From Mesaphorura yosii (Eukaryota > Arthropoda > Collembola > Poduromorpha > Tullbergiidae), in contig WIXG01000313.1 of assembly GCA_009869945.1 (NCBI GenBank), positions 1 through 64,000 of the forward strand: a DNA stretch of 64,000 nt, read 5' to 3'. A program made the position numbers and the translations under genes. Below, piece after piece: positions 4,881 to 46,334 of the stretch. A model generated the notes under the pieces. It did no database searches, had not been told where the DNA came from, and saw nothing but the letters and a program-made list of their open reading frames with translations. Each line of letters begins with the position of its first letter. Positions within the stretch are counted from its first letter, which is position 1.

Positions 4881-6253
4881 TTACTTGCCGCCAGCTGTAG
4901 CCGCAGCCGAGGCAGAAGACTGGAACTGCCAGATGATAATCGTGTACGTCAAGACCGAGCCGAGAAACGTTATGCCAAAGCTCGTCGTGAACACAAACAG
5001 ACCGTTGCCCTTCATCGCGAGCTGATTCGTGCTCATGTCCATGCGGAGTGCGGCCATGTTTATGCAATGGATCCCTGGCCGCGAGCGCCAGAATTCGCCG
5101 TCGCATGCCCAACTTCCTTGATACGGATAAGGGGTCCCGTACTGATTCACCTGGCTCGCAATCCACTCGTAAAACTTGCACGCTTTGCTGTTGACGCGTG
5201 CGCCAAAATAAAGCAGAACAAATACGCCCAGGAAAAACAGCGCCATGCTCGTGATGATGACGACGGATGAGAGCACGCGGGAGAAATCCCAAGACTCGAA
5301 TATTGTGCCGATGAAGCTGGGGAAGTAGAGGAGGCTCAAAATGATTGAGGCCACGTAAACCGGGCCAAAAATCTCATTGGTTTGCTTCACGACGAATTTC
5401 ACATGTTCGTAGACGATCAGGACTTCCCGAAATTTCGAATTCGTATCAGCTCGGTTTTCGTAGAAATCCTTGAAATTGTCCATTAATTTATTGAGAAAGA
5501 GTGTGACGAGGATTTGGGCAGGGAGGGCGCAGTACGCGAGCATGGCGGCTTCGAAGCAGACGAACAAATGTAGCGTGGTGGCAAAGATGCCAAGGATATC
5601 TAGCGGGTTCTCGTCTCCGGGACGCAGAAGTACGTACGTCTTGACTCCTTCGTTATAAAAAGACCGCAAAATGTCGCCTGGACCGGCATTCAGGTCAGGC
5701 CACGTCCTTTGTTTCCATTCGAACAGGATGATGACGAAAAGAACCCAAAGCAACACGCAACATTGCACAATCTGTATTGAAAATTACTTTCACGCGGCTA
5801 AATTCTCGATAAAATGCGGCAGCATATGAAAATTTGCAAGTTTACCTTGAAATTCCTTCCATTTTCTGATTTTTTGCCCTCCAACCTCGGCAGGACCTCG
5901 AAAAGTTTCTGGAGGCTGCGCCCACACGACCAGCACATGTTCATATATGACAGACGATAGAACGGGGCCACGACGATATCCAAACCCACGGTCAAGTGAA
6001 AGGAAAGTCCTGCCTCATTCTGCACATATTCATTCCAAGACTTTATGGCTGTACACACTGACTCGTACTGGATCAGCGCGTGGACAATGGCGCAGGCGAT
6101 CTTCTGAGGCCACGGTCCATGCTCGAATGTGTACTCAAATTCGGATCCCGTGTTTCTCGATTTTTTGTGAGGTTTTATTCTCACGCGGAAAGGACAAATG
6201 CAAAGGTAATACTGGACGTTGAAAATCTTGACGAGATTGAACAAGTACGCCAT
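4881..6253 (-). CDS. Gustatory-type 7TM chemoreceptor, copy B (last intron lost)
   Basis: Two exons (6253-5846 and 5771-4881) joined in phase 0 give 432 residues. Start chosen at MAYLFNLVKIFN, which aligns with the MALH starts of the neighbours; an in-frame upstream Met exists. The helices, the KFYEWIASQ segment and the MDMSTNQLAMKG segment match the array. The final part reads straight from FVFTTSFGITFLGS into TYTIIIWQF without an intron, whereas copies A, C, D and F are interrupted just there. This copy has therefore lost the last phase-0 intron. The tail after the motif is an Ala-rich extension ending AGGK. Confidence 0.85.
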
Positions 6254-6424
6254 TTTTGACTGGAGTGAAAGAAGAAGGCGTACCGGGCGGGAATATTCGA
6301 CTTTATTCTGCGTCGAGTCTCTCTTTACATTTAAAATCACTTCTGTTCGTGCTTGATAATGTCATGGCCAAAAAATTCAATCCACAAAATGTGTTTGCGT
6401 AATTTTTTTAATCTTGTAATTGAA

Positions 6425-7778
6425 TTAAACGCCTTCGTCGCCGGAGCCCTGAAATTGCCGGATTACGATTGTGTACGTCAAAATCCATCCGAGAGCCTGT
6501 AATTTCAATGAAAGCTTTATTAAACTATCACGTCAATGTGCGCAGAATGGAAAAAATTACCGTCATCGCCAAATTCGTATTTATCACAAAGAATCCTCTG
6601 CCTCTCATGGAAAGCTGGTGCGTGCTCATGTCCATGCGGAGGGCAACTAAATTGAGGCAAGGAATCATCGATGAATCCATGCCGCCCTGCCCAAGGCAGT
6701 ATGCCCGGTTCATTTCGCTCGCAATCCACTCGTAAAACTCTGCCGCCTTGCGGCTGACGCTTGCCGCGGCCCAAGCAATGCTCCCTGCGGCAAGAAGGTA
6801 TGCTCCCATGTTCAGACAGAACATGGCGGCAGTCATGGGATTCGCGCGGAAATCCAAATTCGTAAACATGGTGCCGATGAACCCCGGGAAGAAAACGAGC
6901 ATCACAAGAAGCGTACAAACATAAAACAGGCCGGCCACTTCATTTGTGAGTTTAACGATTGTTTTAATATCTTCATAGGCGGCGATGATGGGGTGGAGGT
7001 CATGCCCACGCCGCCACTGGCGTACGGTATCGGCGAAATTGTCGAGCAGACGGTCCAGGAGAAGGCCAACCGCAAATTCCACGGGCATGATGCTATACAC
7101 GATGATATTGTACCAAATCATTGTCAGCATATGAATTCCTGCGGCTGTAATGCCAAGGATATCGGCAAAGTACACCAAATTGATTGAAATTTCGCGCGTC
7201 GCCTCGACCGAAGGGATCCAATAAATCAGGCGAGCGTCCTCGTGGATATTTTTCATGATTTCTGCCGCAGTTCCGTCTCGCATTTTCAGTTGCCTCAGCC
7301 ACGCCGAAGAGAGTACTGAAATCAGTTGCCAGACGATGAAGGTGAATATCCAAGAATAAGCCCAACGTATCCTTGACTTCCGTGGCGGTGGCTGCACTAC
7401 ATCTCCGATGGATAATTTTGGCTTCAGCTGCGTTAACGCCTCCAGAATCTTCTTCAGGGGCTTTCCACATGTCCAGTACGTGTGAGCGTACACCAAAAGA
7501 AAGGGCAGGCCCGACGCGTAGCCAAACGCCATCATCCATTCGAGCGAGAGTTTCGAAACCGCACTTCCCGTCCAACGCGCCCAAAACGAAACCGACTCGT
7601 ACACAGTTTCGTATATGAGCAGCAGATACATGAGGGCACAACCGATTCTTTGGGCTGTCGAGCCAGGCTGAAGCACGTAGGACCCAGATTGGCGCTCGAA
7701 TTTGAAACGGAATGGCGAAATGAGAAGAAAATAGTTCAAATTGAAAATGTGGGTTAAAGTTTCGAAATGCTCCGCCAT
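6425..7778 (-). CDS. Gustatory-type 7TM chemoreceptor, copy C (first intron lost)
   Basis: Two exons (7778-6561 and 6496-6425), phase-0 junction, 429 residues. Start chosen at MAEHFETLTHIFN. It has the same architecture as its neighbours: FYEWIASEMN, LRMDMSTHQLSMRGRGFF, then TYTIVIRQF in the last exon. The motif has Arg where the others have Trp before the QF/QL pair. The first half (about 130 residues) runs without interruption into SWIFTFIVWQL, so the intron that splits copies A, B, D and F at this point is absent. Confidence 0.85.
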
Positions 7779-7896
7779 TTCGCGAATCACATATGCATTT
7801 TTCCTTCCACAAGGGGAAAATAAGACTGATCTTGGCAAACAGGAGGCAAAAGTAAATTTTGACGTTCGACAAATTGCCCGCCAGAAAAATAAACAG

Positions 7897-9309
7897 TTAC
7901 GGTCTGTCACTTTCACAAGATGCTTGCAGTTGCCAAATGATGATTGTATAAGTGAGCACAAGACCGAGAACCTATAATTTAAAACAAATTAGAGTAAATT
8001 AATTTCTTCAACGGACTTTGAACTACGTTACCGTCGTGGCCAAATTCGTCGTGAATACAAAAAACCCGCCGCCTTTCATCGAAAGCTGGCTCATACTCAT
8101 GTCCATTTGAAGTGCTACCAAATTTACTGAAGCTAGATGTTGGAAGTTGAATTTTTGACCTTTCCACAGTTCGCTTGCAGCCCACTCGTAAAATTCCAGC
8201 GCCATGCTGTTGAGTTTCGCTCCGAGGTAAAATATTCCAAATGTAGGCACGAGGAAACTGCACACACTCATCACGACCGAGAAAACATTCGCGAAGGAAG
8301 CGGACCGGAAATTGAAGGCCCCAAACATCGCACTGAAGACGGGAAAATACATTAGAGTCATAAGCATCGTTATTACGGAAAGTGGGCCAAAAATCAAGTT
8401 GATTTGCTTGACAATGGATTTGATTCCGTTGTAATGCCACATGATCTTGTTAAAATCTTGACCTTGACCCAGCTGGCTGTAGCTGTAGATCCCTTTGAAA
8501 TCTTCCATCAAGTGGATAAGGAAGAGGCCAACAAAGATTTGGAGTGGCCATGCGTAGTAAATCAGAACCACAAACTCGCAGTACACGAAAACGTGGACAA
8601 ATGTCGCTAAGATTCCAATGGCGGAGGCAGAAGGCAGAATGGTATAGTTTCCGTGCGCGCACTCTGGCGGCGGAATCCAATAAATTCCTTGCGCTTCGTT
8701 GTAGATACTCTGCGCAAATTCCCACAGGCCGGCGCCATCCCGGAACTGAAGGTGAACCACCCATTCGGAGGCGCCGACCATGCCAAACACCCACAAGAAG
8801 GTTATACCCATTGTCACCTACAAGGATAATAAATTAAGGGCATAGTAAAAAGTTCAGGTTACACACAGAAATTCGGAGTCGGAATCGGTTTACTACGCAC
8901 GCAAGTGACTTACCAGATTATTTTGCCACCGGCATCTTTTACCTAGGCTGACATTATCCAATTTCTGTAGTTCCTCCAAAATTCGAGTGAAACGTGGCCC
9001 TGATTTCCAATAATTGTTAAGGTAAACCAAGATAAATAGCGGGGAAGCCAGCGCGTTAAGCCCAACGACCCATTGCAATGACGGGTTGGGACTCACTCCG
9101 CTCCAATCAAGGTAAAATTTGAAAAGATTGAACGCACTTTCGTACAAGACCAAAATTTGCAAGAGCGCACAAGCAATTTTGTGGGCTAGGGTGCCATTTT
9201 CGAGTGAATACCTCTTGGTTGCTTCATGGAAACGAAAACGGAACGGGAAAAGACAGAGGAAAAAAAAAACGTTAAAGCTCGTAGCCAATTTAGAAAAATG
9301 TAAGGCCAT
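7897..9309 (-). CDS. Gustatory-type 7TM chemoreceptor, copy D
   Basis: Three exons (9309-8914, 8817-8032, 7971-7897), phase-0 introns, 418 residues. Motifs are MALHFSKLATSFN at the start, EFYEWAASE and LQMDMSMSQLSMKGGGFFVF near the end, and TYTIIIWQL in the last exon. It is closest by eye to copy F: both have MSxxQLSMKGxGFFVFTTNLATT, GLVLTYT and WQLQ. D and F therefore look like a recent pair, with the collapsed remnant at 9.4-9.6 kb between them. Confidence 0.85.
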
Positions 9310-9391
9310 TGTTGTGTTGGAAACTGAACATAAACTGCACGAAAACCAAAACCTGCACTGAATACTGACTTGTTCGGCATTTTTCAAGTTA

Positions 9392-9598
9392 TCAGGCGTA
9401 ATTTAAGAAACGATGACGTAAAATGAACAAAAAATGACATTTTAATTTGCTAATTGCTGTTGGAAGTATTTTTATTTCTGAATACTTTGAAGTAAAGTCC
9501 GCCCCAAGAGTAAACAAATACGGCCTGTCGCTTGAAGATGCTTTTAGTTGCCAAACGCTGATCGTGTACGTGGACAATTTCGAATAGTGCAATGCCAT
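9392..9598 (-). pseudogene. Collapsed gustatory-type receptor remnant
   Basis: The frame starts MALHYSKLS, matching the first residues of copies D and F. It passes directly into TYTISVWQLKASSSDRP, which matches the last exon of copy D (TYTIIIWQLQASCESDRP). About 390 internal residues are missing. This is an internally deleted receptor gene in which only the two ends remain. The frame runs past the usual stop into unrelated sequence. Similar ends in the neighbours suggest unequal recombination or slippage within the array. Confidence 0.75.
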
Positions 9599-9850
9599 TT
9601 TGAGGCCATGCTGCTGGAAGGCTCCGGCGATAAGAAACTAGACAGAAACAGGTTTTACGATTATTATATTTTAACTTACAACTGCAATTAGCAAAAGCTG
9701 ATTAATTTGAATCCTGCCATGATATAAGTGAATAAAACAAGTGAAGCCCTCATCTGCTAATAGCTGTTTGATGAGCGCTGTTGCATTAATTAATTAAACT
9801 AATTAAACTTGTGAGGTTCGTGTTCGTCTGATGTCAACCCCCAAAACAAA

Positions 9851-11311
9851 CTAATGGCCGCCACCAGATCCCTGAAGTTGCCAAAGAAGAATTGTGTATG
9901 TTAACACAAGGCCGAGAACCTGCAATTGCAAAAAAAATGGAATGAGCACGCACGCGCGCGCCAGATATCCGGCAAAATGAATTCCTGAACCGTAGACAAT
10001 TTTGCTTACCGTCGTAGCCAAATTAGTCGTAAACACAAAAAACCCGGCGCCTTTCATCGAAAGCTGATTCATGCTCATGTCCACTTGAAGTGCGGCCAAG
10101 TTTAGCGAAGCAACCGCGACCGGATGCACGCCCGAGTTCGATTTTTGATCCTGCCGCAGCTCTCGCGCGGCCCACTCATAAAATTTTAGCGCCCTACCAT
10201 TGACTTTAGCTCCAAAGTAAAATATTGCAGCTGCCGACACAATGAAGCCGCTTGTGCCGACGGCAAAAAGTATCAATTTGAGCAGATTTGTCCGCAAACT
10301 GAATAATCCAAGCATTGCGGTGAACCCCGGGAAGTACATCAAAATCATAAGCATCGCGCACACATACAGCGGACCGAATATGTAATTGGTCTGCTTCACG
10401 ACGGATTTAATGCTGTCGTAGCGACGTAGGACCAGCTGGAAATCGCAACCGCTCTGGTGGGTGTACAACTCTTTGAAGTCCTTCATCAAGTTGTTGAGGA
10501 GCAGACCGATAAAGATTTGTATGGGCATCGTGAAGAGAATGAGTGCGTTTGATTCCAACAAGACGAAAAGATGGACAACTGTTGCAATGCCAGCGCCGGC
10601 GGCGGCAGAGACTGGAGTAGCAGTCGAATTTTCGTGCCGCTCGTAACCCGGTGGCCCTGCGCCAGCGACCCAGTAAACGTCCCGTGCTTCGTCATAAACA
10701 CTCTGGACAAAATCTTGCCAACCGGCGCCCTCACGCATGTGCACACGAACTAGCCACTCCGATGACCCGAAAGTAGCAAAAAACCAGAAAGACATGCAGA
10801 CCATAAAAATCTGGAAGGATTCGGCATAAATCAGCAAAAATATTCATCTTGCCTTAAAATACCGTGCAGAGTTACTTACGACAGATTTTCTCCCGCTCGC
10901 GCTCCTGATTTTCGATTTGCTCATGGAGAAAAGCGGCCCGGTGCCTGCACCATTTTCTATTTCCTGAAGCAGCTCCAAAATTTTCGCGAAACGTGGCCCA
11001 GATTTCCAATATTTGTAAGTGTAGATTCCGACAAAAACCGGAGTTACCACCGCGTCAAGTCCCATGATCCACTGTAGGGAAAGATCTGCCCCCACATTTG
11101 CACTCGATTTCATGTAAAATGTGACTGATTTCGCCACGCATTCGTAGAGGATCAAAGATTGAATGACGACACACGCAATTTTGTGTGCTGTACTCCCGCT
11201 TTCGAGCGCGTACTTGCCGGTGGCCTCGTCGAATCGAAAACGGAACGGAAAAATGCACAGGAAATAATGCGCATTAAAAATGGTCGCCAATTTTGAAAAG
11301 TGGAAGGCCAT
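9851..11311 (-). CDS. Gustatory-type 7TM chemoreceptor, copy F
   Basis: Three exons (11311-10880, 10810-10010, 9919-9851), phase-0 introns, 433 residues. It is the upstream-most and best-preserved member: MAFHFSKLATIFN start, FPFRFRF, then KFYEWAARE, LQVDMSMNQLSMKGAGFFVF and TYTILLWQL, ending GSGGGH. An Ala-rich external loop (SAAAGAG) follows an Asn-Ser-Thr site that could be glycosylated. Same 7tm_7 role as its neighbours; ligand unknown. No regulatory site was recognised upstream. Confidence 0.87.
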
Positions 11312-14300
11312 TTTAATGTACTGCGCGGGTTGCAAGACAAAATTATACAGAGAGAAGGCAAATTTGATGACTTTCTGTATTTGCATATGCAATTTAGCTT
11401 TTAGCAATTAGTCAAGGTCAGTTAATTGAAGTAATGACATGAATGTACACAGAAACCTAATTTCTAATTTGCTGATTGTCGTTTTTTTATCGACCCCAAG
11501 CGAACCGCCTCGTGCAAATTTCTTCGGCGCTGTCCGCATCTTCTCCGCAAATTTCGACTGAAAATGACTGGACATGACTGAAAACGCGGCGGAAAAGAAA
11601 ATGCTAAAGATTAAAGATTAAATGCTAAGGATGGATCTGTTATTTGATCCGCATCCTCATCCGATTTTTTATATCTTCTGTCTGCTTTTTTATCATTACC
11701 TCACCATCACCCTCATTATTCTTTTCGTACTACAAATTTGGCCTGGCCTTTGATATCTCTTCTTTGGCTAAATTGGTAGCAGTTTTATGTCGTCGACTCT
11801 TCCTTTCATCTTCCTTTTTTTCTCTCTCGCGCGTTTGTGTTTTGTGAGCGTCTTTCCTTTAATCATTGAGGGAAAGATGATCCCCTCGCGCGCGTCGCGT
11901 TACCTTAATCAAAAGAATTTTAGCCCCTTTGTCAACATTACGATAATGGAGCGAATGGGAAGTGGTGCTAATCATAAACATTAAGCTCTACTTTTCCGAT
12001 GATCATTCCAGATGCGTATACGGATGCGGATGATCATCCGGAGAAAGAAAAGAGAAAGTCGCATCCCATAATCGTAATTCGTAATCATTACCGTTTGGAT
12101 TTACTAGTGCAAGTGTGACGGAGATGAAATGAAATGAGCTCAATTCGTATTTTTATTATTACAAATTAAATTAAAAATACTGATACCCCAATTTAAAATT
12201 TTATAAAGTCATTTCCATTTTCCCTTCCGATGAAGGAACCTGCTGTCTGCTGCTTTTCCGGCTGTACAAATAATGAAATTATTCCAGCACCCTTTCTCGT
12301 GACTGCCTGCTTTTGCCTATTATCGGATGAGAGAATTACGATTACGATTATTGCCAAATATTACGAATACAGGGATTAAGACCGCGACTTGCAAAAATGG
12401 GACAGCAACGGGAAAATGCAATAAATAAATTCATTTCATTTTCTGTATTGCGTTGCGTGCGTGCGTAGTGCGTCAGATTTGAAAAGTTTGTAGTTTGCAC
12501 GCGGAAACGCACGTTTATTTTCCATTGTCATTATTTTAAAATCCTTCCATCATCTTATTTTATGGCTTCTTCTGTATGCTTCTTTCTCTCGCGTGTCGCG
12601 TCACATGCTTTAATTAAAAATATTAATTGTATAATTGCCAATAAAGTTTCAGTAATCCGCGTAATGCGAAAAACTAGCTCGTCTCGCTTTCGTGAATGCC
12701 GGCGGGCCTTGTTTGTTGTCAAATTCGTGTCTTCATGCATAAAAAAAATGTTCCTATTCCAGAATTTACATAAAAGATGAAGAGATAGATTGTCCGATGT
12801 GACGCCTGACCAGGAAAAAACTTTATGATCCACGAATGTATCAGGCAAGGCAACTGACTGACTTCATTTACATTTGCATTTGCGGCGACGAAACTCGGCA
12901 CAATTTTTATTAGGCAGCAATTCGGAACCTTCAAATCTGCATTATTCTAATCTGGAAAGTGCAGGGAATTTGTGCCCATTTAAGTTTATTACTCGAAGCG
13001 AAGTGCATCTGCATTTTCCAATAAAAAGAGAAGCCCAAACTTTTTTACTGGCTCCGATACGGGATATGGAATGGAAAGTGAATTGACGAGAGTCGAAAAG
13101 CAATAATAAAATTCGTCATGCGTTTAGAATGAGTACGAGTACGGTACGAATTTACGAATCCAAATGTACAGGTCGTAAAAAATGTAGACGTGCACCGAAG
13201 TTCGGTAAATGTCAACATCTGTAAAGCAATATTGCGGACAGAATACAAAAATCTCCAACAAAACGATGGAATCGTACACTGCTCGTCTTGATTAATACGA
13301 GTAAATATTTCTTCTTTCTTGAACTTCCTGGAATTTTCTGTGCCTGTCCGTTTGCTTTCATTTGTCGTGAAGCGCAAAACATTTGTCTTGATCTCGCATC
13401 TCACGCGCTGCTTAGATAAAATTCATTGGGCTGGCCAAACTTGGCCTTGTCTCGTGTCTCGTGTTTGTCAATGATGTTTACAAGTTCGGGCCTAATTGGA
13501 TGAGAAAATAGAAGAAAAGAATTAGAAAAGTCAAAGTCGAAGTCGAGCTGAAGCTGATGAATGAGGTAGCAGTTTGTCAATGTCACGCCGTGCAACGAAA
13601 GACAACTTGCGACTCGCGAATGTGAATTCCCAATTGATTTCTCCGGAAGCGAAATACAAAAGTAATTTGGCTGCATCGAAGCAGCACTGTGCCGACTTAA
13701 TTTACATGAGTGCATCCATAATTCGATTAACGCAGCAACGAAACCTGGTCGGTAACAAGATTGCATTGCACTGCACTGCACGGTGGCATTTGATGAATTA
13801 TTTGTGACACCGTAATTCCAGTTCACCTCTTCATTAACTAACCCGAGTGCGAGCGCCATGGTTGTCAACACTCATTCCCTCGACACTTTAAACAAATGTA
13901 AACCAGACGTCGACGACGGAGCAGCGACGAGACGCGACGGGAGCGCATCACGCAATAATTATTCCGGGTGCTCAATTCCCCTTTCTAATTTTTCATCTTG
14001 AGGGCAACTTCACTGTAGCTCGGCTCATAATTAACTGGCGGCAGTGGCAAGAGATTTGAACCGCTTTTGCCTGTGACAATAATAAATTGCTACAGTCGCA
14101 GAATTTTATGTAAAGTAAAACGAGAAGATTCGGAAAAGCGTTTCCAGTCGCAGTGCATTGCAGAATGTATAATTTGCCTGATTACGATTGCGCATTATTT
14201 TAGAGACAGACAGCGATCAAAGGCTTAACTTACACTGGGCTCTGTCATTTTATTGACCATTGCCCGTAGCGTTTAGATTTTGGACTGGACAGAAGTAGCT

Positions 14301-22300: not shown

Positions 22301-25066
22301 TTCGAAGCAGGTGGAGATTTCAATCATTCGAAATCGAATATGTGACCTTCGCTTCAGCTCAATGGCTTATCGGCATGATCTTTGATCAAATCAGGATTGT
22401 CATCGTGCAAGTTAGTCGTTCAGAGGCCGAGTTTTTCACCGGTGTTCGTGCGGATAATCTGAGAGGTGTAATCGATTCTGATCTGATGAAGATAACGGCA
22501 CGAACAGCGGCCGCACTGACAAAGTCCAGACAGAGAATTTAGCACGCGCGCACGCATTTGTGGAGAAAAATGCAATTATCTGTCGACGGCATTTTTAATA
22601 AAAACGGATTACGAAATATTGCGGATGGGAACACAAAGTATAAAGTTGTTAGCGGAGTCTCACGTTTCCCCGCAATGGAAATCGTAATGCGGAGTGAAGA
22701 TCTCGCTGAGGCAACTCAGCTTCTGCCGCGGGTCGCACAATTCCTCGTTCCTCGTACTTTGTCGTCTCACGAACATTTGAGTGCATTACGAAGCTATCGA
22801 ATTCCATTCCATCTTTTGTGAATGCGAATTGCCTCATGTTATTATTCAAACTCCAAAGTGCCATCAAATGAAAGCAGGTTGCACATCATTGAACTCGGCT
22901 TTGGCTTGACTTGGCTTGGGTTTGGGTTGCCCCAGGATTGAGATAAGAAATGGAAATGGGAGACAGAAAGTAGAAGCACAAATGTCAAAATGCCGACAGC
23001 CGACGGGGCGATGCGATGATTTGCCATTCATGATTCACAAATGCACGACACGAACAACGACGCGCTTTATTGTTATTGTTATTATTGTCATCTCGTTTAT
23101 GTGGATGATTTTTGTTGACAGAAGCCACGACACGGTGAATTCAATGAATGCGTCTTGTTGAAGGCACGCAGGATGAAAGCCGCGGAATAATAAACTCGAA
23201 ATTCCCCAAAGAAAATATTATTGAAAGCGTAATAAACATAATATCTTATTACATATGCATTTCCGAGTTGTGAGTTTGGAGCCGAGCTTATTCAGTGAAT
23301 TCGAGTGGAGTGCCGAGTCGCCGAGGTTTCACCGTTTTTATCATCTTTCACTCAATTTATGCTCCCGTCTCTCGCTCCCATAAATCACGGGGTTCGCAAA
23401 TAACTGTCAATACTCGGCGCGTCCAGGGTGGTCATAATTCAATTGGATTCTGAGTCGAGTACAATGAAAATGTAATTAAATGGCCAATAAACGTTCGACA
23501 CTTGAAATCTTGACATTTTAAACTCCAAAATTTTTATTTATCGCCTGGGTCTTCAAAGGCGTTGAATTAATTTCATGGCATTCATGGAAATCTCCCGAAA
23601 TAAGGCAACCCTTTCTAAAAAAAACGCAATTTGATCGGATCCCGTTTGATTCGGAACGCGTTTGGCGTTTCAGAGTGCAAGTGGCAATCAAAAACGGATT
23701 TCCTATAACAACGCGTGTGCACACGCGGTGTCGGCGGCATGCAGTGGCGTTAAAAATTTAAAGTGAGAACAAGTGGGAATTGTAAACAATTTTGTGGAAG
23801 AGTTTTTAATGGAATTGAACAATAAAAAGTATGGGTGACAGTGACAATTTCACCCTTTTTTTCTGTATTATGCAGTAGCATTTTTGCGCAGCAGCGTTTC
23901 GCGTGCGTAAATCACTGGAAACAATATATTTTGGTGTGAATGGGCAACACGCCACCGTACTCTTGGTCTTGACCTTTTGTCACGTCGATGAATAGAAAGA
24001 CACATGCATTTAGCTACGCAGTATTTAAATACACTGCCACTGAGTTGTGATTTGCATTGTCATCAAATAAACTGGAGTAGATGAATTATGCATAAATAAT
24101 GCACTGAACTCTCTTTTGCTTGAATTTGCGACGCACACACGCAAATAATTAATGCCAAGCACGTTCCAGGTCGGTCATGCACACGAATATCGAAAACTTT
24201 CCGGCATGAAAAACTTCCGGTTACTTATTGTCGATGTAAAAAGATACAAAACCCATTCCCCGCTTTGTACTCGTGGAAATTGAATAAAGATCACATTTCA
24301 TAAAAAATAGCCCCCGTACTGCACTGTCGGGTTTTCCAATCTCATTATTTGACCGATCTCATTATTTTTCCCCGCCGCGTCGCGACCAATGACCACCAAT
24401 TTCTCTTTGATCACACTTTTTGTCAGGCTAAATGGAGAGAATCCCGAAAGTGATGAGATGACCGTAAGAATAAAAAAAATCCTCTCTTCCTAGTTATCAA
24501 TGATTCAGTGATGAGATACCATAAAAAAGTGTGGTCAGGGCAGAAATGGTGCTAATAACAACCAAGCATTACTTTTTATGCTCAGTAACGAAGTCGGATG
24601 GCCGGCAGCAGGCGGGGAAGCCCGCAATTTTCCTTCTACCGTCCTTTGTTCATTGTCGCATTGAATTCAGTCAAACGAGTCACGAGAAACTGAGAAAAGC
24701 GGAAGCTGGACAACGTAAACAATGAGTCACTTCAGCAACGTCTGTGCATTTGAGTGGACATTATTTTATTGGCAGATGCGTAGCTGGAATATTTGTCTTC
24801 AACCAATGCATAGATGCGACGGCCTAATTAATGACCCAATTAAGCAGCACAAAAATACTACGCTGCACTATTTGAAGCGCAGCTCATCAACAACTCGTTG
24901 GACAAAAATCGGCGTGCTTTTGCTTTTACGTTGCGTGAGCGTGACGCACTACGTAATTGTCAAAATGCCATATTTAAACGAGCGCCGCTGCTTACGACGG
25001 GATTCATTCAAAGATTTTTGGCCTACTTTTCAACTTCCGCTTTCAGCTTTCCAGAATAATAGCATA
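19308..25066. other. Long gene-poor stretch
   Basis: About 5.8 kb between the transposase remnant and the hemocyanin-like gene. Short frames only, none with a recognisable domain. AT-rich tracts and a short TTATTG-type repeat near 23.07 kb are visible. An in-frame extension (24722-25066) precedes the hemocyanin-like start, but it lacks family resemblance and is taken as non-coding. Confidence 0.55.
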
Positions 25067-27383
25067 ATGGATTTACTGACCCGCACAACTCTTCTGTTGG
25101 TTGTATGGTCAACCGTTGGCGTGGATGTGCGCGTAAACTCGCAGAATTATTATCTCCCTTGGCCCTATTACTACCAAACTCGGTCACCATCTTCGCCTTC
25201 CACGCCGAGCCCTACAGAAGCCTCGCTCCAGGATCTCTACTCCGAACTCTTCCGGCAACCTGGCGGGGGCGCACGCGAGCGTCAGCCGACGACGCTGACA
25301 GCGTTGGCGCTCGAATCGTGCGCGGCCCGCGCCCGTGCTCAAATCCCCGCCGACGTCTTGCGCGTGCTTCGCAATCCGAATCTGACCCGCTATGGTTACA
25401 GCTTCGGGAACACCGGCACGACGACGACGAGACTCGGCGCTCACGCTCAAACCGTGCACAATCTGCTGCTGGAATCACCTACGGCGAGGGACGCCATCTG
25501 CACCGCTCACGCGCTGCGAGACCGTACGGGCATCAGACGGCTCGCTTGGCTCCGTGGCGTCATAAGCGCAACGATTAGTCGGCCCGACATGGCTTCGCTT
25601 GTCCAGCCCCTGGAAGATTTGTCCAGCCCGAACGGAGCGCCGTCGGGTATATGCAGAATGCTGAACGGCAGCGCCAGCAGCAGCATAACGTACACTTACT
25701 CGCCTGAGAACAAGCTCTGGTATTGGCGCGAGGATTTGGCGCTGAATTTGAACCACTGGAACTGGCATCGAATCAGTGGCTTCGACGAAGAAGACGGCGA
25801 CAGCAGTCTGTCACAAATGCAAACGCGGGCGGACAGCAGAAAAAGCGAGCTATTTTATTTCTTCCACCACGGAATCCTTGCTCGCTACCACGCAGAGCGG
25901 CTAGCAAACGGATTGGCGCCTGTCGAGGGAATGTTTCTGCGTGCGGGACAGCCGCCGCCTTCGCCGTATCATGCGATTTCATTGCAACAGGCTCAAAATT
26001 TGATGGAGATTATAGCAAATCGGGCCGTGATTGATGTAAGTGATTTAAAAATCATACAGCCATCCTTTCCTTTACACGAAAATTACGTTGTGTCTTCGTG
26101 ACGGTGTCGCAGAAAAATAGCCGAACAATCCAGCTGGACTCGAAAATCGGAATCGACGTGCTCAGTCAAGTTTTAGGCCTTGAAAATGGCACGGCACCGG
26201 ACATGGAAGCAGCCACCGTATTAAGAGACCCGATTTTCTACGCGTACTACGCTCCAATTGATGAAGTATTCGACCAGTACAAGCGTGCGCTCGTGCCTTA
26301 CACGCCAGAAGGGGTAAAGCCACCAATAAATCGCTTCGTTTATCGGCTTGTCCACATATGCAAGCATTGAATGCATGGTTTGCTCTCTTACAGGATGAAT
26401 GGCCACTGCACTGGCCTCAAATCGAAGTTACAGCCGTCCGCGTCGAGACTCAAGACCAGCCTTCGCTTGGGTCCAACAAACTCATCACTTTCTGGCATTA
26501 TCCGTCCATGGACTCGGACGAGGATGCCAGAAGCGGAAGCGATTCCATGCTGCGTTGTGCCAGACAGCTGCTGGATCACAAGCCGTTCACGTACCACATT
26601 GAAATCAATCGGCGCACCGACACCGGCGCTGCTGCAGGCGCTTTCATCAACGGTTGGGGCTGGGCACAGAAGGCCACCGTCCACATCTTTATGGCGCCAC
26701 GGTTCGACGCTGACGGGGAGCGGTACTCGATGGCCGATCAGCGGAAGCTCTTCTTCCCGATGGACGCATTCACAGTGGAGCTCCGACCGGGGCGGAATCT
26801 GATAGAGCGGAGGAGCGAGGATTCCACGCTCACAACGCAAATGCAAATGACACAGACGCAAACGCACGTTTGTAGCGCCTGCGGATGGCCACACCATTTG
26901 CTCCTGCCCAAAGGCACTTCGAAAGGGCAGGTTTTCGATTTATTTGTCATGGTCACGAATGACAATGTCAATTCATTTCTTGCGACGACAACAACGAGTA
27001 CGACGGGGACGCTCTGTCCCCCGGCGTCGATTTACTGCGAGGCTCACCGCGGCGGCGACTGGGTCGGCAACGCCCGACCAATGAATTACCCATTCGACAG
27101 GCTTCCCTACTCCGTCCCAGTCACTGACGGCTTCAGCAACACATTCAACAATGCCCAATTTCAATTCTGGCCATCTTTCCAGTACAGCAATGACAACAAT
27201 CGTACGTACAACGATGGCGGAGGCGGTAGCGGGCTGAGAATGGTGAAGGACCTCGACGAGTACATGAAAGGCGTGTCCAACATGGGCACGGCACAGGTGA
27301 TCATCACGCACGTGGACAACAGCATTTTGCATCCGCCGCTGCTTCCCTTTCATGACGCATGGGCTGGCTACGGTTTCGGTTAG
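25067..27383 (+). CDS. Secreted hemocyanin/prophenoloxidase-family protein lacking copper-B ligands
   Basis: Three exons (25067-26035, 26113-26313, 26394-27383), phase-0 introns, 719 residues. Start chosen at MDLLTRTTLLLVVW, a signal peptide, as in hemocyanins and unlike prophenoloxidases. Copper-A ligands are present: His 230 and His 234 in NHWNWH and His 267 in SELFYFFHHG. The copper-B region is not. The sequence passes from GIDVLSQVLGLENG straight to VLRDPIFYAYYAPIDEVF, so the roughly 30-residue segment normally carrying the first two copper-B His (LHNxGH) is deleted, and the third (FYRWH) is Tyr. The C-terminal immunoglobulin-like domain is intact (RDQRKLFFPMDAF-type core, CGWPHHLLLPKG, YPFDR). 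Oxygen binding or phenoloxidase activity is therefore not expected. A storage, structural or hormone-binding role like hexamerins or cryptocyanins is possible. Confidence 0.88.
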
Positions 27384-28076: not shown

Positions 28077-31000
28077 ATGCCCAGCGCCAGCGAGGGCCTC
28101 ACGTTGGGGTCGGGCGCGGAGCCGGACGAAGAAAATGCACATGAGCATGAGCGCCAGAGGAGACGAAGGTATGCATGCCACTTTTCTCATGCCGCCACGA
28201 GTCATAAAGTCATTTTCTTACACGACGGTAAGAAATTTAGAGATTTATGTACTCAGTTCCGAGGAGAGTTTGACGACCGGAGATTGGAATACGCCGATCG
28301 AAAAGCCATCCACCCGCGACGAGCGTGCTACTGAAGACGGCCGGGCTTTCGTCCTCGCTGTGAAAGGACTCAAGGTAAGAAGACTCAAAGCTCCGCTCAG
28401 CTCCACTCAAAAATCCTTACCCTTGATTTGCACTGATTCATAAGGCCAAATTTGCCAATTTTTGCTAGCTCTTCTCGTACCCGCTCATTTTCGTCCTTCT
28501 TCTCCTCAGCACCGTCGTCGCCAAAGTCACACTGCTCCTGATGAGCTCACAACTGTCCCCGAATCACTCGACGCGCTACTGCGCCGGAAAAACGGACAAC
28601 CTCGAAGTCCGTAGCCCTGAACTGCAGCGCATTCTCTGGTCTTGGGCGATCACATTCTGTTTTCTACTCCCGGAGGTGCTCATTCTCCTTCGCTCAATGC
28701 GGATCTGCATTTTTAAGGATGTGGCGTGGCCGACATTTGCGGAATTTGTGATTCCGCTGCTGTGCGAGACCTGCCACGTGGTCGGACTCTCTCTACTTGT
28801 GTTCGTGGTGCTTCCTGAGCTGGACGCCATCGGTGGCCTCATGGTGACGCACGCGGTCTTTCTCTTACCGGTTGTGTTGGGGCTCCTGACACGAGTGAAC
28901 GATTGGTTCGTCATGCGTATGCTTTCGCGTGCGCCTGCACCTGCCCGTGACCAAAATTCTAACATCGCTAAGGCACGCACGGCCGGGACCAGGTCGGACA
29001 GCCCCGGCGGCGAAGAGGAGATTCGATTCTGGTCCTGTGCGGCTGCTGACTTCATTGCCTTTCTCTTTCTAGTCTTGGGACTCGTGATTTGGCCGGTGTT
29101 CTGGCACCAGCCGGACGGCAGCGGCTACAGCCATGGCCATGGCTACCTGCTTCCCGTCGCCTCCCTCCTGACTTCATTCGGGTGGTGGGAAAATTACGTG
29201 ACCTGCATTCCGAGGGGACGAGCCAAGAAGGAGAAGAATGCTGGTCCTGATCTCGAACAGCCGGATCAGCACAGTTTGACACCCAAGCCAAAATTCCGTG
29301 AGTTAATGGCAGGTGTGTTCTTATTTCTTGGTGCACATGAATTTTACGAATTCGCGAATTTTCAGACCCGCTCATTTGGCTCTCCCGTGTCGACTTCGAT
29401 GCCAAAAGCCGATACGTGACGTACTTGTTCATCTCCGTCTGGAAATGCGGTCTCTTCATCGTCTCCATGGCGCTCTCGACGTGGATTCACGGCGGCGACG
29501 TGGCCCGCCTCTTCAGCGCCTTTTCAGCCGCGTTCAAATCACACCCGATCAACATAACCGAAATCCGTCCTCGCGTGGTTGAAAACAGTTTACCGGCAGG
29601 GGAGTGGCTACCAACTGTATTCGATGAGTACATGCTGGCATTTACAAGCTGGGACACGCCCTTTCTCGCGATTGGAACGCAAATGCTTGCTGCGTTCATC
29701 GCTTACGCGACGGCAAAATTCGCGTGTAAAATCGGAATTCAGAAGTTCAGCTTTGCGTTTCCGCTGGCGCTCACCGTTCCCGTTTCGCTGACATTCCTTG
29801 CGGGCGTGTGCGGCTCGAGAACGGAGAACGAATGCTTCTGGGAGTCGGTGCTGCCTAGTTACCTTTTCTGGACATGCCCGAAAGGGTCTGTCATGGATTT
29901 TATGTTCAAAAATGTAAGTTGCCCTTTCTTGACCAGTCGTACTCAATTTAAGCATTGAATTTGCCCACAGGGTGGCTGGGTGTGGATTCTGTGGTTCGTC
30001 GCACAGACCTGGACGACCCGCCATATTTGGACCCCGACTTTCAAGCGACTAGAGCCGGTTGACGAGCTTTTTGTTGCACCGTTCTACAACGCGCTGCTAA
30101 TCGACCAGTCGCTGGCGCTCAACAGACGACGAAGACCTCGCGAGAAGAGGCCGCAAGGCGAAGGCGATGCGACGGACAGCGCCAGTGCAGGCGTGGGCAG
30201 ACAACAATACCGGAGACTCGGCAACGATGAAGCCCAAGGAGAATCCGAAGCGACGCCAACGGCCCAAGCCCGAGCGCAGGCCAGGGCGAGCCAAGACACC
30301 GACGCGGACACCATCCCAAAAATAAAAGCATGCGCAACACTTTGGCACGAGGAGCCCGAAGAAATGATGGAGCTGTTCAAGAGTATTCTGCGGATGGACA
30401 AAGACCAAAGCGAGAAGCAAATTGCGCGTGAGCTCGGCGACGACGAGCCGGACTTTTACGAGTACGAGACGCACATCATGTTTGATGACGCGTTCGAGAA
30501 GTTTACGTTGGCGGGGGCGAGAGCTACCAGGGTCCGCGACTCGCAGCCGCAGTACGTGCTGAACAAGTACGTGCAGAGCATGATCGAAACACTGCAGAGG
30601 GCAACGGAGGCCATACACGGAACGGACAATAAGCTGGACCGACCGAAAACGATCCCGACGCCGTACGGTGGGCGTGTGGAGTGGACGCTGCCTGGGCAGA
30701 CGAAGCTGTACTGCCACCTGAAGAATAAAGACAAAATCAGAAACAAGAAGCGCTGGAGCCAAGTCATGTACATGTACTATCTCCTCTGCTTCAACCTCCC
30801 GCGGCGCGGGGGGAGGGCGATTGAGCAGAACACGTTCATCCTCGCGCTGGACGGCGACATCAACTTCAAGCCGAAGTCCGTGCAGAGACTTCTGGACTTA
30901 ATGAGAAAGAATCCGAAGCTGGGCGCCGCCTGCGGGCGGATTCACCCGGTCGGTTCCTCCTCGCTCATGGTTTGGTACCAGAAATTTGAGTACGCGATTG

Positions 31001-33323
31001 GGCACTGGTTTCAGAAGGCGACGGAGCACGTCATCGGTTGCGTCCTCTGCTCGCCAGGCTGCTTCTCTCTGTTCAGGGCGGCTGCGCTGACGGATGTCAA
31101 CGTCCTGAAACGTTACACGACCGAGCCGAGCGAGCCGGTCCACCATATTCAGTTCGACCAGGGCGAAGACCGGTGGCTCTGCACTTTGCTCTTGAAGCGA
31201 GGGTGGAAGATTGAGTACTCGGCCGCCTCCGACTCGTGGACACACTGCCCAGAGGAGTTTAATGCGTTCTTTGATCAACGGAGACGTTGGGCTCCGTCGA
31301 CTATGGCGAATATCATCGACCTTCTACGCAGCGCCGAGGAGACCGTCGAGAGCAACAGTGACATTTCCAGGCCCTACGTTTACTACCAGGTAATTTATTT
31401 ATAAACTAATTTATCGCAGCGTCACGTCCCTCATTTGCTACCTTCGTACTGAATCTTGTCCGTTAGATTGCGCTCATGGTCGGCTCGATTCTCGGACCCG
31501 GGACAATTTTTCTGATGCTCATCGGCGCGTTCAACGCCGCGTTTCGCATTGACAACACGACGGCGCTGATTTGGAACGCGATTCCAGTGGCGCTGTTTAT
31601 TCTGGTCTGCTTCCTGTTTGACAAGAAGGTTCAGCTGGCGGTCGCGCAGTTCCTCGCAGCGATTTACGTTCTCGTCATGGTCGCCGTGGTGGTGGCGCTG
31701 CTGATGCAGATAAAGGAGGACGGACCACTCGCCCCTTCGTCGCTCTTCTTCTTCGGGGTGGCCGCGTCTTTCATCCTCGCGGGTTTCCTGCACCCCGTCG
31801 AGGCCAGCTGTCTTCCGTACGGCATCGTGTACTACATCACGATTCCGACGATGTACATGATCCTCATAATTTATGCCCTCATGAACCTGCACGATGTGAG
31901 CTGGGGCACGAGAGACGCTAAGCCCACAACGGCGGCGGGAGGAGTCGAGGAAGGGAAGAAGCAAAAGGAGACTGGCGGCTTGTTCAGTCAATTTTTTACC
32001 AACTCGCCTAGCAACGGCAACGATATGGAGGGCTCTTTCGAATTCTCCTGCGCCGGGCTTTTCAAGCTGATGTGCTGCACGAAGCCGGTGACTGAAGACA
32101 AAATTCAGCTGCAGAGAATCGCCGAGAACCTGGCACATCTGAATGCTAAGCTGGAGAACAGCAGCAGCTTGGAGCACAACGAAAGCAGCAGCCACAGCCA
32201 CACCCACGCACCGTCCTCGGTGTTGGGAAGGGAACGGGAAGAGCAGCATGACGGGGACGGCAATGGCGACGAGATGTTTGTCGACGAAGACATCTACCCG
32301 AAGTGGGTCGAGGATCCCGCCCTGAAGAGAGCAGAGCCCGATTTCCTGGGGATGGACGAGCGCCAATTCTGGACGGAGCTCATCAGGACGTTCCTCACAC
32401 CGTACGAGACGGTAGCGCAGAAGAAGTACGAGGCGATTAAGAATCCGGAAGAGAAGAAGAAGAAAATTGAGGTACGGGATTTCCAAAATTTTGCCAGACA
32501 AAACACAGGACAAATAAAATTGTTGCCCATTTGCAGGAAGACAAGGAGGAACACAAACAAAAGATGTTGGACCTCCGCAACAAAATGGTACTCCTCTTCT
32601 TCATGCTCAATGCCGCCTTCGTGCTTGCCATCTTCCTTCTCCAGAATAATAAGGACACGATCCATATCGATTGGCCCTTCGACGTCAAATACAACATGAC
32701 GTACGTGGAAGGCCGCCCTGAAATCCAGCTGCACAAGGAGGCACTGAGTCTCGAGCCGATCGGGATCGTGTTTGTCTTTGTGTTTGCCATCATCATGCTG
32801 ATTCAATTCGTGTCGATGATTTTCCACCGATTCGGCACGCTCGAAGAGATACTCGCGTCCACGGACGTTGTGGACAAGAAGGAGCTCAGTGAAGTAGGGC
32901 TCGGTCTTAAATTGACGAGGATGGTACAGGACGGCGGCGGAACGACGCGGTCAAATACGCCGAATGTCGTAACACCCCAGAATCAGAATCGCGTCCCTTT
33001 GCGCTCAAACAGCAAAAAAGTTGTGCTGAATTTGCCGGCTCGGATACGGAAAGCCATTCAGAGGAAGAGAGATTGTAAGCGCCGCGCCTGCCTCTTTATT
33101 TTTGGTTCCTGCAATTCGCAATTCTCAATTACTAATTGCATGTTTTGCCTGCCACTTCCCAGCAGTCACCGCCCACAATGAAGATAATGAGTTTAGAAGC
33201 ACGCTCCAAGCTCTCGACCGGCGTAGATCCCGAAAGGAGGAGGCACAGCGACGTAGTGGCAATGCAATCTTGACAGCGGAGCCCGGTCCCAGCTCGTCAT
33301 TCTCTACGCTGCTGCACAATTAA
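28077..33323 (+). CDS. CHS: Chitin synthase
   Basis: Eight exons fit perfectly in phase: 28077-28168, 28257-28374, 28469-29297, 29366-29913, 29971-31389, 31467-32471, 32537-33074, 33166-33323. They encode 1568 residues, the usual length for arthropod chitin synthases. The enzyme is a multi-pass plasma-membrane GT2 glycosyltransferase that polymerises UDP-GlcNAc and exports chitin. Domain order is N-terminal helices, catalytic domain (KACATLWHE, RKRWSQVMYMYY-like block, LDGDINFKP, GRIHPVG, CSPGCFSLFR, DQGEDRWLCTLLL, QRRRW), then a helix cluster, the SWGTRD motif, and the last two helices with FHRFGTLEEILAST. The last acceptor is a CAGCAG tandem, so two isoforms differing by one residue are possible. 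The CHS1/CHS2 class cannot be assigned by eye. The N-terminus is short and could be alternative. Confidence 0.95.
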
Positions 33324-41310: not shown

Positions 41311-43231
41311 TTAAAATCTGGACACTTGTGTTTCAAGGAACGTCCCTTCAGGGACCGCTGTCGCTGCCAGGTAACGCCACAACTCTGTTCGCAGTTCCGT
41401 AAACCTTGGCCGCATTTTGTGATCAAAGCTCCAGCATCTCTTCATGATAGTGTACCTGAAACCATTAACAAGTAATAAATATCTGATGACCTTTCTTAAC
41501 TCAAGATAAGATTAGATTCATGGTCATGGTCACGCGTACATGTCATCTGGGGCCACTTCAGGTTTCCCTAGAATGAAGCCATAGCCCTTGATCCGATGCT
41601 CCTCCAGCTTTTGTAGGTACTTGGTCACATTTGGAATCTCCGCAAAAGGTTCTTGGGCGAAGCTGTAAATCTCCCACAAAGTCACGCCAAAGGACCACAC
41701 ATCGGAGGCTGTCGAGTAGCACCTCGCCGTCAGAGCCTCTGGCGGCAACCACCTCCAAGCAACTTCCTTCCCATTCGTCCTCATGTAATTCACGTCCCCG
41801 TACAGCTTCCTCGACAGACCAAAATCGGTCAATTTGACTACTGTCCTTTCCTTGAGCAGTACGTTTCTGGCCGCCAGGTCACCGTGTATCACTTTCCTCG
41901 CCGACAAGTATTCCATCGCGTCCGCCAGTTGTAGCGACCAAGTCAGCATCAACCCCGGAGACAGGGTCTCGTTTCCAACGAACCGATCTCGAGTGGGTGT
42001 GTACTTGCCTTCTTTTAAGATTTCATTATCTTGGATTCCTGTCAAGAGGTCTTCAGGGCGGAGGGACCCGTGCTCTGTCAAATACTTGTGGATGTTCCCC
42101 AGGGGACATTGCTCCACAACCAAGTACAGAGTGCCTGCAGGATCCAGATGCACCCCAAACATGCCAATCACGTGCGGATGCGGCAGATGGTGGAGATGCG
42201 CCAACACCTTCAGTTCGTCCTGCAACACCACCGGGTCCACGCCATCCTTCACTGTTTTGAAGGCGACCTCCTCATTTCGGTACCTGCCTGGGCGCACCAC
42301 CGCGAAATGTCCTTCACCCAGTACTTTCTCGGGGGAAGAATTGAGTATAACGTCCTGAGGTACCAGTTTGTATTGTGCAACCAGGCACGGCCCACTGCCC
42401 CATCTCTTGCACCTTCTCGCAAGGACAAAGACCAAAAGACATAACACAGCACCAAGAATTGCAAGAGTGATCAGGAACAGTTTGCTGGATTCAGCGATGA
42501 CCCAGTGCGCAGTTGCATGAAGGGTCCCGTCGAGTGGACACCCTGCGAGATAGGCGGTGTTGTTGCGTCCTTTGCAAAAGTACCTGTAATGCCACCAAGG
42601 AGCGAGACTCCCGTTGCGAGCAACAATCAATTGTACGCACCGCACAACATCGGTGAGGTCCTCTCCTCGCAACCCTGCAAGACGGACGGAGGAAATGGTT
42701 TGCTAATTTGTGCAAAACTGATTAAAAATTATTATGAATAAATTCCAATTCGTAAGATCGGTCGTCCTAACCGCAAAAAGTTACAAAGCATTTTGAGTAA
42801 TAATTTTTAGTGAGTAATAATGAAAGCATTTGTGGTTACTTGAGCAAGGGACGCTACATGAGCTGGTGTTTGGGTGCGGGTGGAACTCGTCTGAGCAATG
42901 CCATCTGCTGCTTAGCACAAACAGCCCATTCTCCGTTGAGTTCGTGGATAAGATTTTGTACCGGGAGCTATTGAACGAACTTGCCCAGGACGCCACACAA
43001 ACCCCTGTCACACAAATACAAAATACAAATGGCAGTAAAATTCCAGGGTTAGGCTACGTTGAATCGAATTCGACTTTACGCACAGTCCCCCAACTCCGAG
43101 TAAGGGATATTGTGCTTCTCGAGCAGAACACGCGCCAGTTCGCAGCGCTCAAAAACTTTGGAGTAGCTGGAGAGCGCCAGGAAGAGCAGCAGGCCGCTGA
43201 CGTAGGCGCAAAGAATTCGGGGCGGTGACAT
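41311..43231 (-). CDS. Receptor tyrosine kinase with C-type lysozyme ectodomain
   Basis: Four exons (43231-43084, 43004-42840, 42674-41540, 41455-41311; phases 1, 1, 2) give 530 residues. After a signal peptide (to about residue 24) comes a complete C-type lysozyme domain (25-150): KVFERCELAR, DWVCVAS, SSRWHC, SVPCSRLRGEDLTDVVRC and YFCKG, ending at LAGC. All eight canonical Cys are present at family spacing. By position, catalytic Glu35 of hen lysozyme is Ala and Asp52 is Glu, so no muramidase activity is expected. A helix at about 170-190 leads to a tyrosine kinase: LGEGHFAVV loop, Lys 244, an insert near 315-345, HGDLAARN (370; usual HRD is HGD), DFG (388), WRWLPPEAL, SDVWSFGVTLWE, and a C-lobe end in the last exon. 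One intron interrupts between SVPCS and RLRGEDL, so the lysozyme third part and the kinase share one exon. Likely a cell-surface sensor; ligand unknown. Confidence 0.88.
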
Positions 43232-44169: not shown

Positions 44170-46334
44170 CTAGATGTGGCCAGTGGAACCACCTGGAAAC
44201 AAAAGAGAGAGAAGAACGACTGGCCGATCCTCCATAGGCGCGTATCGCCTGATGACCGGCCCCACTTGCACAGCTGACGACGGAACCCGAGCAGCTGCCG
44301 AGTACCTTGGGTCTTGCAGTATTTCAAGTTGATGGTTTGGGTAGACCCACGATAATTGAACTTGGGGGGCGACATTGTCGATTCTCTGAACCAAACTCTT
44401 AATTCGTAGATGTTGTTCGGACCAAGGACTCAGGGAGTAGACCCGGGAGTCGGAGTGCTTCCAGGAGACTGTGACACCCTTTTCTGACGATGCAGCCCGG
44501 ATTAAGATGGTGCCCACCGGGCTACCCTGCAGCAATATATCAACACGTTCTCGTTCGACCCAGCCCAAAACCAGCCCGTCCTTCCACATTTGATCAAAGT
44601 ACTGCTCGCCTAGTAGTAAGAACCCGTAAAAGAATTCTGAAAAAGTAAACAGTCCCTCGCTAGACATGGGCTGGCGGACGAATTGATCGAGGGTGACGCT
44701 GCCTCCGACGCAAACGCGCAGCAGTGTGTTGGACAGACACTCCCAGTTAAGCCACGTTAAGGGGCTTCCCATTCGTGACATTTTGTATCTGTTCAGGCTC
44801 TCCAGCAGTTTTTCCTTTGACACAGTCACGCGAGCATCCGCAACACCGTCGCTGTGGCCGTTGAAACGGAAGGCAGCGTCAGCAAACTGAATAGCCGCCC
44901 GGGCCCGATATTTGGATTTTTCCGATTCCTGATCCGAACGGGAGCCGAAGACCAACGGCAGAGACGTCGCAGTGAGCTGGAAAGACAGCAAAATGAAACT
45001 AAATTATTTCTACGCCCAGTTTTTCACGTTTTTTTGGACAAATAAGTTTCCAAACCTTTGCAATTCTCCATCCATCCACGAAGACATTCAGCTCGCAGAC
45101 GAGCAATTTATCGGCGTAGAGGTGCCCCTGCTCTCGTTCGCCCCTTCTGAGCAACACCTTCTCAAATTTCACCATTATTGGCGCCTCGTTGTCAACATCG
45201 GCACCTTCCTCTGCACCTTGGCCTGGATTTTTCAAAATAACGCAGCCAACGTTCTTGAACCCGTCCGCACAGGACAATGATCCGTCGACCTTGCTTGGGC
45301 ACCCCATAACCTGGTAAAGTTGTTCCCTGTTCACAAGCGACAACATGGGCTCCGTTTCTGGAACGAACCAGGGGTGCAGCAGGTGCTGAAATTCCATCGT
45401 CGGCACCGTCACCTCCGCGTTCGCACTTTTTTCCTCTTGAGTGTACACCAGGAATCTCTTGCAATGAGTTCGGATTAGAAAAGTTTCATTGAAAATGTGC
45501 TGGAGCAAGATGTCGAGGCTTGCCACCGAGTGGGCGCAGAGTTCAGGGTGCGCCGTGGCAAAACGAAAGAGTGTCAGCGCATGACTCACGATGCCATTCA
45601 GGATCTGTCCGATTTTGTTACACGACGGCCACACCCAAGCAACGCCAGGTGGATCATTTAGGTGTAGGAATGTCCAGCGGTTGATGATGTGTGTTGTAAC
45701 CAGTTGCTGGACTCGGGAAAGGCGCGCCACAGCTTCTGTCAACGGATTAACCTGCGTTTCATAAATACTTTTCTTATAGTATTGACAAACATATTTAACT
45801 TAGTAACTAGCAACACCTGCACAATAAAATACGGTGCCAGGTCGAGTTGGGGCAGCTTCTGCATAAATTCGTCACTCCACCGCAATCCAGCCAAAATCTC
45901 GTCCTCCGCGGCAATTTGCTCCCCTTCGAACTGAAGCAGCTTCTTGAGAATTTTCCACAATTTCCCCAATCCGGCGGGGCCAGTGTGCGTCTGTAATTAA
46001 CAAGCAGGTGATGAGTGGCAGACAACAATTCAGCAACAAAGTTTTACTTTTTTACTGAAAACCTTAGCTTACTTGGGTAACTTCCGCACCCGCAAGTGAC
46101 TCTGCGCAGGCGGTTCCTGCGTTATACTCTTCCGTAGGGTCGCTACTACAAACCAATTAGTCAATGCAATGCATAGGAGCATTGCTGAAGTTTTGATTTT
46201 ACTCACGCATTCAACACAGCGGCCACTTGTTGGCCTGAGAGGCGTTGTCTGGCGGAGTAGAGAATTCCGTGCTCGTCCCACAACCTCGTGATAGCGGTGG
46301 TCTGAACTTGGTTCAGTTCCTGCAGTCTCTCCAT
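44170..46334 (-). CDS. STAT: Divergent STAT transcription factor
   Basis: Five exons (46334-46207, 46145-46073, 45990-45817, 45751-45056, 44976-44170; phases 2, 0, 0, 0) give 625 residues. STATs are latent cytoplasmic transcription factors that dimerise by phosphotyrosine-SH2 contact. The N-terminus is short. The DNA-binding middle has the STAT pattern NEAPIMVKFE followed by LTATSLPLVF. The linker carries TFSEFFYGFLLLGEQYFDQMW and the SH2 domain reads DGLVLGWVERERVDILL, then GTILIRAASSEKGVTVSW, SLSPWSEQHLRIKSLVQRI. In the SH2 core the invariant phosphotyrosine-binding Arg is present as LIRAAS. A single Tyr just after the domain (LQDPRYSAA) is the candidate activation site. The protein is shorter than usual STATs (700-850) and has a reduced coiled-coil. 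The lysozyme-kinase gene follows on the same strand. Confidence 0.8.

Follow-up and report, generated by a model that had tools for sequence, protein, structure and literature searches.

Receptor tyrosine kinases with c-type lysozyme ectodomains in the springtail Mesaphorura yosii

In a 64,000-nucleotide stretch of the genome of the springtail Mesaphorura yosii (assembly GCA_009869945.1, contig WIXG01000313.1, positions 1 to 64,000 of the forward strand; hereafter the window), we found a four-exon gene on the minus strand (43231-41311) that encodes a protein of 530 amino acids (531 codons with the stop) in which a signal peptide, a c-type lysozyme domain, a single membrane helix and a tyrosine kinase follow one another in this order. 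This gene is one of at least seven lysozyme receptor kinase genes, located on seven contigs of the same genome, and the lysozyme domains of this family have kept the fold and lost the catalytic residues. Many kinds of ectodomain are known on receptor tyrosine kinases, and a lysozyme ectodomain is apparently undescribed so far: in line with the original prediction made from the window sequence, our literature search (titles and abstract starts, with subscription papers mostly outside the search) turned up no description of a lysozyme receptor kinase. The main text of a paper on the holozoan tyrosine kinome (PMC8662651) contains neither 'lysozyme' nor 'kelch', and the main texts of two springtail genome papers contain neither 'tyrosine kinase' nor 'lysozyme'.

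A lysozyme domain joined to a tyrosine kinase

Splicing of the four exons, Pfam matching and hydropathy analysis bore out the predicted architecture. All three introns are of the GT-AG type. Exon 1 (43084..43231) encodes the signal peptide (residues 1-24) and the start of the lysozyme domain, and its donor at 43084 falls inside the codon for Trp28 (T/GG), with the reading frame kept on splicing; exon 2 (42840..43004) encodes the middle of the lysozyme domain, including the two former catalytic positions (Ala57 and Glu74), and alone scores 29.2 bits against the Pfam Lys profile; exon 3 (41540..42674) encodes the lysozyme end, a linker, the membrane helix, the juxtamembrane part and most of the kinase; and exon 4 (41311..41455) encodes the end of the kinase C-lobe, the C-terminal tail and the TAA stop. 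The Pfam check that had been proposed for the spliced protein gave both expected families, Lys at residues 25-145 (74.6 bits, cut-off 27) and PK_Tyr_Ser-Thr at residues 220-508 (227.9 bits), and the matches cover most of the length of each profile. Hen lysozyme aligns with residues 14-150 (phmmer, E 3.5e-24), and by comparison with lysozymes the mature protein is inferred to start at residue 25. The lysozyme domain spans residues 25-150 (42538..43159, introns included), and the kinase domain lies at 41380..42330 (intron included). Hydropathy analysis yielded only one membrane helix (residues ~170-191, 42415..42480, mean hydropathy 3.1). Since only 19 residues separate the last lysozyme Cys from this helix, the ectodomain would consist of the lysozyme and a short linker and nothing more, and no immunoglobulin (Ig) domain was matched by Pfam in the window protein. 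With a signal peptide, one helix and a cytosolic tyrosine kinase, the predicted protein has the makeup of a receptor tyrosine kinase.

The original prediction had excluded a mis-joined pair of genes on the grounds that the lysozyme end and the helix share exon 3 with most of the kinase. The sharing holds, but the lysozyme part of exon 3 is weak when matched alone, as it scores only 12.5 bits (E 0.18), under the Lys cut-off, and the argument from this exon is thus right but weak when taken by itself. The fusion is certain because the spliced protein matches both profiles and because the first exons of two paralogues (C297 and C328, designated by contig like the other loci below) join a whole lysozyme to a kinase: each of these exons runs from the signal peptide through the entire lysozyme, an Ig domain and the helix into the beginning of the kinase. 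In two further paralogues (C535 and C346) the helix and the entire kinase share a single exon with the second part of the lysozyme, so that in four genes one open exon covers sequence of all three elements. For these four we assembled complete spliced models, and for the remaining two (C1:659 kb and C604), in which the domain order is that of the window gene spread over more exons, the lysozyme part was spliced and the helix and kinase exons were read behind it. The six paralogues score 71.9-81.2 bits against Lys, and C297, C328 and C346 each carry one Ig domain (Pfam).

Altogether we located 12 lysozyme loci in the genome by Pfam and protein searches, namely seven with a kinase bearing an HGD catalytic loop (see below) directly downstream on the same strand, four that look secreted, and C549. 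Chance adjacency of lysozyme and kinase is excluded, as seven of the 12 loci lie at most 4.5 kb upstream, on the same strand, of one of 51 HGD sites, against an expectation of 0.0012 per locus. C549 (L042:4706-5422, minus strand) encodes a lysozyme and half an Ig domain followed by a stop; the 0.8 kb past the stop showed no kinase, nor did the PF07714 matches listed include one on this contig, and C549 may be either a truncated copy or a soluble form. The family may have further members, since such searches easily overlook a lysozyme whose sequence is spread over short exons: C346, C1:659 kb and C604 were missed by the Pfam search, and in the protein search the C604 lysozyme had an E-value no better than 0.67 until its exons were joined.

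Intron places tie the receptor exons to those of ordinary lysozyme genes. The intron splitting the Trp28 codon is common to the window gene, C1:659 kb, C604 and C346, and C535 has an intron at this place too, but with Phe as the residue. A phase 1 intron after the Cys at hen position 80 is common to the window gene, C1:659 kb, C604 and C346, and between these two places C1:659 kb, C604, C346 and C535, but not the window gene, have a phase 0 intron. All three places (in the Trp28 codon, before the stretch corresponding to hen INSR and after Cys80) recur in the secreted lysozyme C167, as read by eye. The lysozyme parts of C297, C328 and C549 are free of introns. The intron before exon 4 of the window gene has its place and phase in common with C297 and C328.

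An artefact, be it an assembly join, a mis-spliced model or a pseudogene, could be suspected from gene models derived from genomic DNA alone, from the truncation of C549 and from the long branch of the window gene (see below), yet the recurrence of the fusion on seven contigs, the single open exons of C297, C328, C535 and C346, the intron places common to the paralogues and a secreted lysozyme, and the intact kinase motifs leave it with a very small probability. We rejected an origin by assembly or splicing error on account of the seven contigs and the four single-exon fusions, and the claim that the junction is genuine is upheld by six paralogues, four of them with full models.

The kinase, the lysozyme fold and a possible ligand

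The window kinase has an intact G-loop, the VAxK Lys (VAFK), the catalytic Asp and Asn (HGDLAARN, 41863..41886, minus strand) and the DFG motif (DFGL), with Gly in the catalytic loop where Arg is usual (HRDLAARN). A pattern scan of the genome returned 51 HGD and 32 HRD sites, and none in backward controls. At least 42 of the HGD sites lie inside a PF07714 match and two lie at most 1.5 kb from one among the matches listed; the other seven are near no PF07714 match among those listed, and one of these seven, C604, is a kinase. A second HGDLAARN receptor kinase (L047:3782-5446, plus strand) is found on the same contig (C313) outside the window; its Ig match is weak (18 bits, below the cut-off).

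The available extract of PMC11024359 describes HGDLA in decapod PVRs at the place where other receptor tyrosine kinases have HRDLA, a loop thus common to decapod PVRs and the window kinase. Among solved structures in the PDB, the window kinase matched best to VEGFR1/2, after a 678-residue chain named EGFR that matched in two stretches, and the C297 kinase to FLT3, CSF1R and KIT, again below the 678-residue EGFR-named chain. From the HGDLA loop and the PDB matches, the window kinase is probably of the PVR class (PDGF/VEGF-receptor type). Unlike in arthropod PVRs, the ectodomain is a lysozyme, and a multi-Ig ectodomain, which we take to be the mark of a PVR, is replaced by a single membrane-proximal Ig domain in C297, C328 and C346 and by no Ig match at all in the window gene, which for this last reason we do not file as a PVR. 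HGD as a mark of immune non-RD kinases was also considered: the catalytic Asp of the non-RD immune receptor kinases XA21 and FLS2, members of a class associated in plants with recognition of pathogens, is preceded by Cys or Gly (PMC2553837, in extract), but these kinases belong to the IRAK family of plant receptor kinases, and this candidate was set aside because decapod PVRs have the same Gly as the window kinase.

All eight lysozyme Cys had been predicted to be in place, and indeed each of them aligned with its counterpart in hen lysozyme. What had gone unnoticed is that the catalytic residues are gone. Hen E35 is replaced by Ala57 and D52 by Glu74 in the window protein, and both residues are missing in all eight receptor-type lysozymes (the seven with a kinase plus C549), with replacements that differ from gene to gene (at E35/D52: A/E in the window, L/S in C297, S/S in C328, A/N in C535, A/N in C346, H/S in C549, G/L in C1 and S/M in C604). 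All eight (8/8) retain the eight Cys and Trp108 (hen numbering), and 7/8 retain Trp63, where the window gene has His. In contrast, three of the four secreted lysozymes identified in this genome (C1114, C167 and C1:552 kb), which have the same fold and eight Cys as the receptors and none of which is adjoined by an HGD kinase, have kept both E35 and D52; the fourth, C118, has kept E35 and not D52, although its exon join is uncertain and the secreted set is small. We rejected active muramidase for the receptor lysozymes, as E35 and D52 are missing in all eight, and their absence favours binding over hydrolysis, without giving the identity of the ligand.

Two close pairs of paralogues differ at far more synonymous sites (proportion pS 0.74-0.85, saturated) than nonsynonymous sites (pN 0.13-0.31), and the same is true of their lysozyme domains alone (pN 0.23-0.31 versus pS 0.83-0.85), indicating that amino-acid change between paralogues is under constraint. 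Non-catalytic c-type lysozyme-like proteins have precedents in insect BLLP1 and ALLP1 and in mammalian SLLP1, none of which is described in a receptor kinase in the source material at hand.

Taken together, we propose, with belief and doubt in about equal measure, a single-pass receptor tyrosine kinase with a dead c-type lysozyme as its entire ectodomain, in which a ligand captured in the cleft, plausibly a glycan, triggers a PVR-type kinase. Exons of a lysozyme gene would have been joined to a PVR-class kinase and catalysis lost; the cleft would then capture its ligand without cutting it, clustering of the receptor on the ligand would switch on the kinase, and the kinase would feed PVR-type outputs. 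As a first guess, along the lines of the glycan sensing supposed in the original prediction, the ligand may be a glycan containing N-acetylglucosamine (GlcNAc), i.e. peptidoglycan fragments or chitin. The lysozyme cleft binds such glycans in the enzymes. We favour this guess because of that binding and because non-catalytic insect lysozyme-like proteins are immune-induced (PMC8071013, available portion) and one of them appears in the transcriptome of a bacteria-challenged silkmoth (available part of PMC1559613). In shrimp, Pvr4 signalling holds back FoxO-driven antibacterial immunity (PMC13252836, likewise in extract). If the proposal is true, the family would illustrate how an immune effector can turn directly into an immune (or recognition) sensor once a digestive or defensive enzyme has been disarmed and wired to a growth-factor-receptor kinase, and animals would possess tyrosine kinases for which peptidoglycan or chitin might be a direct ligand. 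Plant LysM receptor kinases, with a glycan-binding ectodomain on a membrane kinase, would be a functional parallel if glycan sensing holds, though their ectodomain is unrelated and their Ser/Thr kinase is of another class.

Several observations weigh against this proposal. The comparisons of the window gene with C535 and C328 give high pN values (0.41-0.50, at pS 0.77-0.86), so that constraint on the window gene would be weaker or its divergence older; the window copy lacks Trp63; its end branches are the longest of the lysozyme receptors in both the lysozyme and the kinase trees (1.32 and 1.0, versus 0.42 and 0.19 for its sister C1); and the HGD loop, being common to decapod PVRs, is by itself no argument for immunity. 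Moreover, cell-cell binding by a dead lysozyme has a precedent in SLLP1 (from partial source text), and this leads to a different and rather less probable reading, according to which the dead lysozyme binds a protein or host cell-surface partner (a growth factor, or a gamete or cell recognition molecule) and acts in development, recognition or reproduction. Such a role would suit a kinase of growth-factor-receptor type, and the Kelch or subtilase folds borne by related receptors (see below) suggest no common glycan, but retention of Trp108 in 8/8 and of Trp63 in 7/8 would be unexpected were the cleft useless.

Probable exchange of ectodomains among related kinases

A Pfam ectodomain scan, which took in 20 kinase frames, identified further receptors that, like the gene family, the catalytic loss and the PVR-type kinase, had been missed by the original prediction, whose architecture stands. 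Kelch repeats are encoded in the same open frame as the kinase in four cases (L014:214-2358, L019:184-2457, L027:154-2454 and L028:754-2448, all plus strand), a subtilase in L012 (1-2463, plus strand), a lysozyme and Ig in L021 (C346), and Ig in L024. L010, L011 and L025 likewise count as subtilase receptors by Pfam, alignment and motif evidence. Among all 72 subtilase matches, three places besides L012 (two on C646 and one on C981) have a subtilase directly upstream of an HGD kinase. The subtilase catalytic His is replaced in all three frames read (L010, L011 and L012) and the Ser in both frames read (L010 and L012), by alignment with solved subtilases for L010 and L012 and by motif alone for L011; the motif search found neither the Ser motif of L011 nor either motif of L025. 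Five other HGD kinases (L013, L015, L016, L017 and L022) form a clade (100/100), and no Pfam family outside the kinase was matched in these frames.

In a kinase tree of 32 rows, made up of C1, C604 and a selection from the PF07714 matches listed, three groups of lysozyme receptors emerge: the window gene with C1 and C604 (100/100), C297 with C328 (100/99), and C535 and C346 within a clade of the four Kelch receptors and L020 (97/93). A single kinase clade of lysozyme receptors was rejected by the approximately unbiased (AU) test, with p 3.6e-4 for seven, 8.9e-5 for five and 4.6e-5 for four excluding the window gene, while a clade of C535 and C346 alone was not rejected (p 0.148). These groups recur in the lysozyme tree, in which C549 joins C297 and C328 and the eight domains stand on one side of a weakly supported branch (60/41); one origin had p 0.305 with six, and a single origin of the lysozyme domain is thus neither shown nor rejected by these trees. 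Since the kinase tree splits the lysozyme receptors, the simplest reading is that ectodomains have been exchanged between kinases, and the tree pattern would look no different had Kelch taken the place of an ancestral lysozyme in some lines.

The number of HGD sites (51), the presence of several unrelated ectodomains on the scanned kinases, the exchange to which the kinase trees point and the fast evolution of the window copy would also fit a lysozyme fold that is a generic stable module from a run-away receptor tyrosine kinase radiation, with no specific ligand and with signalling that is ligand-independent or proceeds via pairing with other receptors. We regard this as improbable, given that the eight Cys are kept in 8/8 receptor-type lysozymes and that both close pairs have pN well below pS in this domain. 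A broader idea, which we advance tentatively and rather doubt, is a large receptor system in which a PVR-type kinase chassis has been repeatedly fitted with disarmed enzymes (lysozyme, subtilase) and propellers (Kelch), exchanged between genes, and in which the former enzymes sense ligands of microbial or environmental origin, as an animal parallel to the plant receptor-like kinases.

Other genes in the window

Directly upstream of the lysozyme receptor gene and on the same strand lies a divergent STAT-like gene (44170-45799, minus strand). Its 44170-45000 part matches STAT5B in the PDB (E 9.5e-13) and scores 18.5 bits against Pfam SH2, for which the cut-off is 21; what we regard as the upstream part of the gene, the frame 44999-45799, has no Pfam match, and a search for the STAT_bind family gave matches only on C391 and C7. 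At 3365-11407 (minus strand) tandem frames resemble, by eye, multi-pass gustatory-type receptors, and the one tested (6528-7985) has no Pfam match. A search for COX1 likewise returned nothing. Finally, Pfam matches to Hemocyanin_M (24719-26101, plus strand) and Chitin_synth_2 (29959-31404, plus strand) fit an arthropod genome.
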